A model generated the notes under the pieces. That model worked only from the letters and a program-made list of their open reading frames with translations. It made no database searches and had not been told where the DNA came from. A stretch of DNA of 64,000 nucleotides, taken from assembly GCF_900111455.1 (NCBI RefSeq), contig NZ_FOIE01000005.1:186001-250000 (forward strand). The letters are read 5' to 3'. A program made the translations under genes and the position numbers. Of the stretch, positions 43,786 to 54,247 are shown in pieces; within the stretch, counting starts at the first letter, position 1; the number at the start of each line of letters is the position of its first letter. This stretch comes from Geodermatophilus poikilotrophus. Lineage in GTDB: Bacteria > Actinomycetota > Actinomycetes > Mycobacteriales > Geodermatophilaceae.

Positions 43786-44292
43786 TCAGGCTCGGGCGCC
43801 CGCCTGCGGTGTCTCGTCGTCGGGGGACGGCGGGATGCGGCAGACCGACTCCAACCAGAGCGCCGCTCCGACCAGCGCGGCCGAGCAGACGACCCCGACG
43901 ACCCCGGTGACCGTGTCGTTCGCGGCGGCCTGCAGGCGCGACACCGACGGTCCCACGTAGAGCAGCAGCCCCACCCAGATGCCGACGAAGGCCGCGCCGA
44001 CGTACGCGCTGGCCTGCGCCAGGACCGCGAGCCGGGCGACCAGCATCGGCTCGACCGGGCGGACCGGCGCGGTGCCGCGCTCGGCCGCGGGACGGCGGTC
44101 CCGCTGGGCGGCCAGCCGGGCCCGCAGCGTGCGGGCGCCGAGGAACTCGGCCAGGGCCAGCACGCCGAGCGGCACCGGCAGCCACCAGCGGAGGGCCGGC
44201 AGGGAGCCGTAGCTCGCCCGCACGACCAGCCACGCGGCGACGGCGAGGCCGGCCGCGAGGACCACCAGGTCCCGCCGGTCCACGGGTCTCAC
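43786..44292 (-). CDS. DUF3180 membrane protein (Rv3605c-like)
   Basis: A 168-aa protein with four hydrophobic segments (LVVLAAGLAVAAWLVV, WLPVPLGVLALAEFLGA, QASAYVGAAFVGIWVGLLLY, GVVCSAALVGAALWLE). Function unknown. Its place after folK matches the mycobacterial order. GTG 44292 overlaps the stop of mini-ORF A (GTGA), which supports this start over GTG 44283. Confidence 0.85.
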   Translation of the reverse strand: MRPVDRRDLVVLAAGLAVAAWLVVRASYGSLPALRWWLPVPLGVLALAEFLGARTLRARLAAQRDRRPAAERGTAPVRPVEPMLVARLAVLAQASAYVGAAFVGIWVGLLLYVGPSVSRLQAAANDTVTGVVGVVCSAALVGAALWLESVCRIPPSPDDETPQAGARA

Positions 44293-44369
44293 GCGCCCTC
44301 CTCGCCGGCGCTCGTCGGACGCGTCCGCGGCCTCGCCCTGCCCGTTCGCGAGCTCGCGAGCTCGCTCAC
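44289..44369 (-). CDS. Mini-ORF A (26 aa) in an intergenic repeat between folK and DUF3180
   Basis: GTG 44369 overlaps the folK stop (GTGA), and its TGA overlaps the DUF3180 start (GTGA). The peptide begins VSELASSRTGRARPRTRP and ends in TSAGEEGA. It is the same length as mini-ORF B and identical at about 17 of 26 positions. Nothing is known of such a peptide to me; it may function only as a translational bridge. Confidence 0.55.
   Translation of the reverse strand: MSELASSRTGRARPRTRPTSAGEEGA
44303..44369. repeat. Family C coupling repeat, copy A
   Basis: A 67-bp unit starting CGCCGGCGCTCGTCG and ending GCGAGCTCGCTCAC. Equal in length to copy B at 44883-44949; the ends are conserved and the middle is diverged. 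Confidence 0.8.
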
Positions 44370-44872
44370 CGGAGGTGCTCCCAGCGGACGACGGCCGCGA
44401 CGTCCTCCGGTGGCAACGCGGCCAGCAGGTCGCTCACCCGGCCGCGGCCCGGTAGCACCGCGGTGGGGTCGAGGCTGGCCCACGGCACGAGCACGAACGC
44501 GCGCTCGTGCGCGCGAGGGTGCGGGAGGGTGAGCGCGGGGTCGTCGGAGAGGACCGGCCGGCCGTCGTCCCCGGTGACCGTGACGACGTCGACGTCGAGG
44601 GTGCGCGGCCCCCAGCGCACGTCGCGGGTGCGCCCGGCGGCCTGCTCCAGCTCGTGCGCGCGGGCCAGCCAGCCGGCGGCGTCCCGGTCCCCGCGCACGA
44701 CCACGACCGCGTTGAGGTACGGCGGCTGCTCGACCGGGCCCCACGGCGGTGTCTCGTACAGCGTCGAGCGGGCCACCAGCACGCCGTCGCCCTTGAGGGC
44801 GGCGACGGCGGTGCGCAGCGCGGCGGCACGGTCCCCCAGGTTGGCGCCCAGCGACAGGACCGCACGGGTCAC
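44366..44872 (-). CDS. folK: 2-amino-4-hydroxy-6-hydroxymethyldihydropteridine diphosphokinase
   Basis: A 168-aa folate-pathway kinase. Signatures are LSLGANLGDRAAALR, LYETPPWGPVEQPPYLNAVV, RWGPRTLDVDVVTV and LPHPRAHERAFVLVPWASLD. GTG 44872 overlaps the stop of mini-ORF B, and its own stop lies in repeat copy A. Part of the folE-folP-folB-folK run. Confidence 0.95.
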   Translation of the reverse strand: MTRAVLSLGANLGDRAAALRTAVAALKGDGVLVARSTLYETPPWGPVEQPPYLNAVVVVRGDRDAAGWLARAHELEQAAGRTRDVRWGPRTLDVDVVTVTGDDGRPVLSDDPALTLPHPRAHERAFVLVPWASLDPTAVLPGRGRVSDLLAALPPEDVAAVVRWEHLR

Positions 44873-44949
44873 GAGTGCTCCCCGCCGGCGCTCGTCGTCC
44901 TCGCGCCCGGGGGTGCTGTGCCCTCGCGTGAGCTCGCGAGCTCGCTCAC
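44869..44949 (-). CDS. Mini-ORF B (26 aa) in an intergenic repeat between folB and folK
   Basis: GTG 44949 overlaps the folB stop (GTGA), and its TGA overlaps the folK GTG (GTGA). The peptide begins VSELASSREGTAPPGART and ends in TSAGGEHS. It is a homologue of mini-ORF A; both are exactly 27 codons including the stop. Confidence 0.55.
   Translation of the reverse strand: MSELASSREGTAPPGARTTSAGGEHS
44883..44949. repeat. Family C coupling repeat, copy B
   Basis: A 67-bp unit with the same conserved ends as copy A (CGCCGGCGCTCGTCG ... GCGAGCTCGCTCAC). Confidence 0.8.
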
Positions 44950-45332
44950 GGCCGCTCCCGCCGGATGGCGACGGCGACGTCGTCGAACGGGACGCCGAGG
45001 TCGGCCTCGGGCTTGTGCACGGTGATCTCGACGGCGTCGACCAGCGGGTCCTCGAGGCAGACGTCGGCCAGCCGCTGGGCGAGGGTCTCCAGCAGGTCGA
45101 CCGGCTCCCCCGTCAGCACGCTGTGCAGCGCGCGGGCCAGCTCGGCGTAGTTGACCGTGCGCTCGAGGTCGTCGTCGGCAGCGGCCGGGGCGGTGTCCAG
45201 CTCGAGGACGGCGTCGACGCGGAAGGTCTGCCCCAGCCGGCGCTCGGCCTCGTACACGCCGTGGAAGGCGTGCGCGGAGAGCCCCTGGATGGCGATGCGG
45301 TCCAGGCGGGTGGACGGGTGGGCGTCAGCCAC
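44946..45332 (-). CDS. folB: Dihydroneopterin aldolase
   Basis: A 128-aa folate enzyme. It has IAIQGLSAHAFHGVYEAERR with the catalytic Tyr/Glu region, TVNYAELARALHSVL, ETLAQRLADV and VEITVHKPEADLGVPFDDV with the active-site Lys. GTG 45332 overlaps the end of folP by 8 bp. Its stop codon is supplied by repeat copy B. Confidence 0.95.
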   Translation of the reverse strand: MADAHPSTRLDRIAIQGLSAHAFHGVYEAERRLGQTFRVDAVLELDTAPAAADDDLERTVNYAELARALHSVLTGEPVDLLETLAQRLADVCLEDPLVDAVEITVHKPEADLGVPFDDVAVAIRRERP

Positions 45333-46185
45333 GGCGCTCTCCCTCGCGACGGGCCGCCTGGACGGCGGCGACGGTCCGGACGGCATCGGCCGAGGCTGCC
45401 GCGTCGTGCACCCGCACGCCCCAGGCGCCGGCCTCGGCGGCCAGCACCGTGGTGGCCAGCGTGGCGGCGTCGCGCTGCTCGGCCGGGCGCAGGGTGTCGT
45501 CGGGGGCGGCGAGCAGGCGGCCGAGGAAGGACTTGCGGGATGCGCCGACGAGCACGGGCAGACCGAGGCCGACGACCCGGTCGAGGCCGGCGAGCAGCCG
45601 CCAGTTGTGCTCGGCGCGCTTGGCGAAGCCGAGGCCGGGGTCGAGGACCAGCTGCTCGGGGGTGACGCCCGCGGCGACGACGTCCTCCACCCGGGCGGTC
45701 AGCTCGGCGCAGACCTCGGTGACGACGTCGCCGTACTGCGCGGCGGCGTACATCTCGCGGCTGTGCCCGCGCCAGTGCATGAGCACCCACGGCACGCCGG
45801 CCTCGGCGACCAGCTCGGCCATGTTCTTGTCGGCCAGGCCGCCGCTCACGTCGTTGACCAGGACGGCACCGGCCTCGAGCGCGGCCTCGGCCACCTCCGC
45901 CCGCGTGGTGTCGACGCTGGCGCGCACACCCGCCGAGGCGAGCTCGCGGATCACCGGGACGACCCGGCCGCACTCCTCGGCGGCGCTCACCCGGTCGGCT
46001 CCGGGGCGGGTGGACTCCCCGCCGACGTCGACGTAGTCGGCGCCGGCGGCGTGCATCACCAGCCCGTGCGCGATCGCCGCACCGGCGTCGGCGAAGCAGC
46101 CACCGTCGGAGAACGAGTCGGGCGTGACGTTGAGGACCCCCATGACCACGCAGCGGCCGGGGCGCGGCAGTTCGGTGCAGGTCAC
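45325..46185 (-). CDS. folP: Dihydropteroate synthase
   Basis: A 286-aa TIM-barrel enzyme, the sulfonamide target. It shows [70 protein letters not shown] and the C-terminal WGVRVHD. GTG 46185 overlaps the folE stop (GTGA). Confidence 0.96.
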
Positions 46186-54171: not shown

Positions 54172-54247
54172 TGGAGCCGCCTGTCGGAATCGAACCGACG
54201 ACCTTCTCATTACGAGTGAGATGCTCTACCGACTGAGCTAAGGCGGC
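54172..54247 (-). tRNA. tRNA-Thr (anticodon CGT)
   Basis: A complete cloverleaf on the minus strand. The acceptor GCCGCCT pairs with AGGCGGC, discriminator T, and CCA is encoded (54172-54174). The anticodon stem TCTCA/TGAGA encloses loop CTCGTAA, giving anticodon CGT for ACG codons. The T-arm reads GTCGGTTCGATTCCGAC. Confidence 0.95.

Follow-up and report, generated by a model that had tools for sequence, protein, structure and literature searches.

Twin-hairpin repeats on the gene starts of Geodermatophilus and its relatives, a probable mobile element of the MIRU kind

The folB-folK and folK-DUF3180 spacers of a Geodermatophilus genome each hold an 81-base unit that is very probably a copy of a MIRU-type element, small, mobile and non-autonomous. 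The units belong to a family that recurs in the genome and its relatives, lies on start codons, points the way of the next gene and is missing from the same junctions in near relatives. Its copies have two hairpins whose pairs covary, and they place a Shine-Dalgarno-like motif before the downstream start. The sequence-only reading had proposed either a mobile repeat adapted to operons or a family of tiny coupled proteins; the many copies, the single NTGA at empty sites, the shared direction with genes and the NTGA rebuilt on both sides all speak for the former.

Two units in a fol gene cluster

The units lie in a window of 64,000 nucleotides (G000:C13:186001-250000, G000 being the units' own genome), where the minus-strand gene order is GTP cyclohydrolase I, a pterin-binding (folP-type) gene, folB, unit 1, folK, unit 2 and the DUF3180 gene. 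A check of the letters on the minus strand bore out the earlier description of two 81-base units with GTGA at both ends. In each, the stop of the preceding gene shares bases with the first GTGA, the following gene starts at the second, and the mini-ORF between the two encodes VSELASSREGTAPPGARTTSAGGEHS in unit 1 and VSELASSRTGRARPRTRPTSAGEEGA in unit 2, each followed by a stop. The identical mini-ORF length noted earlier holds for these two units and not throughout the family: in a set dominated by Geodermatophilaceae, 145 of 175 measured copies have the 77-base spacing. The features are as follows.

44946..45386, minus strand: folB (dihydroneopterin aldolase, TIGR00525), upstream neighbour; longest frame, start provisional
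44869..44949, minus strand: unit 1, folB-folK junction, 81 bases from GTGA to GTGA; letters checked
44928..44949, minus strand: unit 1 left hairpin, its 5' foot containing the folB stop/start overlap; from covariation, letters checked
44871..44904, minus strand: unit 1 right hairpin, its 3' foot reaching two bases into the folK GTG start; from covariation, letters checked
44878..44883, minus strand: unit 1 Shine-Dalgarno-like GGGGAG, for folK; from the letters and the family tally
44366..44872, minus strand: folK (TIGR01498), flanked by both units
44289..44369, minus strand: unit 2, folK-DUF3180 junction, 81 bases from GTGA to GTGA; letters checked
44348..44369, minus strand: unit 2 left hairpin; from covariation, letters checked
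44291..44324, minus strand: unit 2 right hairpin; from covariation, letters checked
44297..44303, minus strand: unit 2 Shine-Dalgarno-like GAGGAGG, for the DUF3180 gene; from the letters and the family tally
43786..44292, minus strand: DUF3180 gene (PF11377), downstream neighbour

A search of five sources against Rfam at the gathering score gave no match for the units. The sole Rfam match in the window is a tRNA gene at 54175-54247 on the minus strand.

A family of copies with filled and empty sites

About 50 copies of the unit are present in its own genome. The 20-base left end, with up to two mismatches, occurs at 27 genomic places, two of them palindrome echoes, and the reversed-pattern control occurs at none, so the recurrence is not a matter of chance. 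From these places 23 units were aligned, after dropping the two echoes, one 35-base short unit and one ending in TGATG. The covariance model R1 gave 53 own-genome matches at a rough E-value of 0.1 or below, of which 51 were examined, the two weakest being left out. The search for further copies in relatives, which the sequence-only reading had put forward as a check, returned them: R1 was positive in all 25 genus genomes, with 4 to 94 matches per genome, and in the wider scans, where E-values are rough and counts are lower bounds because 11 to 15 candidates were scored per genome (11 in the scan of the order), matches at E ≤ 1e-4 occurred in at least 72 of the 75 Geodermatophilaceae genomes among 397 genomes of the order, and in at least 46 of the 322 others, many of these being weak. 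When R1 was run on 16 genomes from other families of the order, 13 gave no match and 3 gave a single weak one. The wider model R2 found relatives, mostly with a 65-base period, in at least 48 of 297 genomes of genus g8, which is inferred to be Mycobacterium from its MmpL and MlaE-type neighbours. Class-wide, at least 28 of 389 genomes matched at E ≤ 1e-5, at least 23 of them outside the order, and 17 of those loci were read.

Among the matches listed, at least 80 loci in all, named records assign the unit to Geodermatophilus, Blastococcus, Modestobacter and Goekera, with two loci in Pseudonocardia and one in Sciscionella. Thirty loci read from 14 genomes of other families share this build in most cases and differ in length. 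Outside the family, relatives in actinobacteria have a period of 65, 74, 77 or 80 bases, for instance 74 with five units in tandem in G397 and 65 in G074 and G186. Within the genus, G016 carries units that are 95% identical between unrelated flanks, as well as an array of four 77-base repeats. The spacing is 77 in 154 of the 240 copies with both ends measured, and a spacing of 61 (6 copies) is an artefact of tandem calls. Derivatives of 35 bases bounded by GTGA were also seen, one at the folK-DUF3180 junction of L238, which retains only the left hairpin, and one in the own genome at C9:312070, in which the left end is fused to the right end.

Comparison of orthologous junctions with and without the insert was another of the proposed checks, and it returned a single NTGA at the empty sites. 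Among 25 genus genomes, the folB-folK junction holds the unit in three (G000, G024 and G041), a direct overlap with one NTGA in 15 and other spacers in seven. One contrast is G009, which has one GTGA where G000 and G024 have the unit and whose FolK is 97% identical; a second sets the single GTGA of G016 against the unit of G041. At folK-DUF3180, read by eye in the 23 genomes that remain once two incomplete loci are left out, there are four units, one 35-base form, one 17-base spacing and 17 direct stop/start overlaps. Elsewhere, L112 on the one hand and L172 and L039 on the other are reciprocal at two junctions, each having the unit where the other's junction is empty. The empty-site evidence is restricted to these three comparisons because many other seemingly unfilled matches proved to be tandem neighbours or one locus fetched twice. 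The contrasts could also be read as precise losses.

In 49 of the 51 own copies, a co-directional frame of 90 codons or more begins at the last NTG; of the other two, one has its frame truncated by a tandem neighbour and the other is a weak, ambiguous match, so that at most one weak match of the 51 may lie away from a start. Across all loci, nearly all copies are bounded by NTGA and point the same way as the gene that follows. Of 248 distinct copies, 234 pass a looser downstream test or run into the next copy. The 14 that fail include tandem neighbours, locus ends and a start without TGA, the others being unexplained. Since 49% of control sites also pass the downstream test at a loose GC3 cut, only the two-sided figure is used as evidence: good frames lie on both sides of 152 of the 248 copies, compared with 6.9% of 3382 control NTGA sites. 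TGA is missing from the called 5' end in 16 of the 248, and in 174 of the remaining 232 that end closes a good upstream frame. A rough gene call for the window counts 93 NTGA sites that fall entirely outside genes, and 31 genes for which NTGA is a candidate start. With equal acceptance of noncoding sites and starts, most copies would be expected off starts, which is not what the own copies show; either starts are targeted, or copies elsewhere are disfavoured or lost. Insertion at NTGA followed by purging of gene disruptions does not, on its own, explain the missing clear intergenic copies.

Hairpins, start codons and the mini-ORF

Each unit consists of two hairpins, whose feet contain the two NTG codons. 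In units of the Geodermatophilaceae type, NTGAGC pairs with GCTCAN in the left hairpin, and in other families the outer and inner pairs are kept with GA opposite GA between them. The right hairpin has an 8-base arm, again with GA opposite GA. The covariation score is 0.248 for the 23 own copies, compared with 0.127 ± 0.013 after shuffling, and 0.354 for 23 copies from several families, compared with 0.142 ± 0.014; none of 500 shuffles reached the latter score, and the signal in this multi-family set is lost when the partner is shifted by 1 to 3 columns. Single units fold with unremarkable energies (z from -1.07 to +1.05), which were set aside as uninformative about structure, and it is covariation that carries the structural claim.

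In both hairpins, the base on which the identity of the start codon depends is paired, and it covaries with its partner. Among 245 distinct aligned copies, the left foot pairs are A-T in 32, A-C in 2, G-T in 5, G-C in 192 and other or gapped in 14; for the start base and its partner in the right foot, the corresponding numbers are 42, 2, 4, 184 and 13. The association holds separately in Geodermatophilaceae, in g8 and in the remaining families, with Fisher p from 3e-7 to 2e-4, values that overstate it because the model structure guided the alignments and the copies are related. In G012 a TTGA foot is partnered by A, and TTGA also stands at that junction in many relatives that lack the unit; a second TTGA foot has its T opposite C in the alignment. 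This covariation could stem from target pairing, from selection on the RNA or from template-switch repair of imperfect palindromes.

A Shine-Dalgarno-like motif precedes the 3' NTG in 173 of 175 copies, a set dominated by Geodermatophilaceae, so the unit brings its own ribosome-binding site. The 5' NTG has one in 98 of the 175, some of which are the right ends of tandem neighbours. In the favoured reading, the element is found after an NTGA at a gene start, often one that overlaps the TGA stop of the preceding gene, and its commonest form adds 77 bases that close with another NTGA. The original NTG then serves as the start of a 26-codon mini-ORF while the old stop stays intact, and the terminal TGA of the mini-ORF overlaps the rebuilt start of the downstream gene, for which the right end of the element supplies a Shine-Dalgarno. 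The operon would thus keep its -4 translational coupling, and the insertion would be tolerated. The twin hairpins with NTG codons in their feet, which are the conserved part, are probably what the mobilising machinery recognises, and the peptide is probably just a track for ribosomes.

Could the units instead encode tiny functional proteins, coupled to the genes of the operon? No internal stop interrupts the reading frame in 142 of 145 canonical 81-mers or in any of the 28 69-mers, and the common spacings of 65, 74, 77 and 80 are all 2 mod 3, as such proteins would have it. Against this, the mean entropy of codon positions 1, 2 and 3 in canonical units is 0.65, 0.62 and 0.53, so that the third position is no more variable than the others, and peptide function was rejected on this ground. 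GC by codon position in the linker is 0.63, 0.83 and 0.69, the last figure comparing with 0.93-1.00 at third positions of the downstream genes. The peptides also differ by family (SELASSR, SEACERI) while the hairpins persist, and four own copies run in frame into the following gene. The mini-ORF frame is kept in 160 of the 175 measured copies and not in 15, of which 10 have the 5' NTG in phase with the next start and 5 do neither. Length changes other than in threes, which the sequence-only reading had named as refuting it, are therefore found in a minority of copies; the strict in-frame reading falls with that minority and the element reading stands. A coding role, the second proposal of the sequence-only reading, is thus very unlikely.

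Two further rivals turn on the hairpins. A non-mobile cis-regulatory RNA, selected at junctions where its hairpins hold start codons and tune coupling, would account for start-codon pairs that covary at both ends and for the few, if any, copies away from starts; it fits poorly with a junction that is filled or empty among near relatives and with neighbour genes of many kinds, and we regard it as unlikely. REP/RAYT and IS200/IS605 elements have end hairpins of another familiar sort, with short palindromes, a tetranucleotide foot and dispersed copies, all of which the units share. A passenger of this type, mobilised by a Y1 single-strand transposase that works on hairpins whose foot is a tetranucleotide, would match the two hairpins, the tetranucleotide of the left foot, the fixed direction relative to the target and the single-base foot changes that are matched within the hairpin. 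The units, however, sit on and rebuild start codons, and an identical search found Y1_Tnp in 0 of 26 genus genomes and in 5 of 14 control genomes; Y1/RAYT mobilisation was discarded accordingly, and such a passenger is extremely improbable. Carriage by plasmids or phages was likewise dismissed, as a consensus-like 81-base unit had no match in either and a 65-period pair had none in plasmids.

Relation to MIRU and a second junction repeat

The sequence-only reading knew of no description of such a unit; a close one exists in the mycobacterial MIRU. MIRUs run in the same direction as the downstream gene, and the 1997 abstract of Supply and colleagues reportedly describes how they transpose into DTGA sites that take part in translational coupling. 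In the published passages available, they are short, apparently mobile repeats of many mycobacteria that insert at start codons with an internal ORF coupled at -4 spacing (PMC12548453, citing Supply 1997). Further passages describe a 77-bp MIRU confined to M. leprae and the tuberculosis complex (PMC4213456), tandem units of 77 and 53 bp (PMC2453075) and a class I MIRU that forms a 77-nt 5' UTR (PMC4128351). As far as these passages go, the units described here are like MIRU in their length of about 77 bases, their tandem arrangement, their start-codon site with a short ORF set, judging by position, for -4 spacing, and their presumed mobility; they also share the direction of the downstream gene. 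They differ in host family, the MIRU passages being concerned with mycobacteria alone, and in the twin-hairpin covariation, which is absent from those passages. The likeness is close in build and place, as compared by description and not with the sequences of tuberculosis units. No exact match to a published senX3-spacer primer occurred in 396 g8 genomes, and in the order there were only two-mismatch matches, in 43 of 397 genomes. At the level of listings and passages, the open literature yielded no MIRU-like element outside mycobacteria, the sole match for "MIRU-like" being the species name Trichodesmium miru-like.

MIRU loci are classic tuberculosis typing markers, and the passages that describe them stop at apparent mobility, with the mobilising enzyme unnamed. 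A family of the MIRU kind in soil bacteria, with empty sites, 4 to 94 copies per genome within a single genus and covarying ends, makes both movement and start-codon choice tractable by comparative genomics and in laboratory strains. A broader proposal is that a class of actinobacterial mobile elements reads the target NTGA through a complementary stretch in its own hairpin, G, A and T starts having C, T and A partners, and that machinery other than Y1 inserts it at start codons, a start-codon-guided transposition of which MIRUs would be one branch; this we consider speculative and rather doubtful. For annotation, there is a risk that units show up as 26-codon genes or false N-terminal extensions. 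In four own copies (C18:45789, C18:129867, C14:310380 and C8:258167) the spacing is 78 and the mini-ORF frame enters the downstream gene, which might lengthen its product by about 26 residues at the N-terminus.

A different, C-rich spacer occupies the folB-folK junction of G003, G004, G006, G010, G017 and G021 (loci L224, L241, L229, L238, L234 and L242). It reads AAGGACCC or similar, with a CTCGCACGCTCG-like palindrome and GGGCC, and adds 77 or 78 bases over the direct overlap in five of the six genomes and 89 in G003. This is perhaps a second junction repeat, similar in size and unrelated in sequence.
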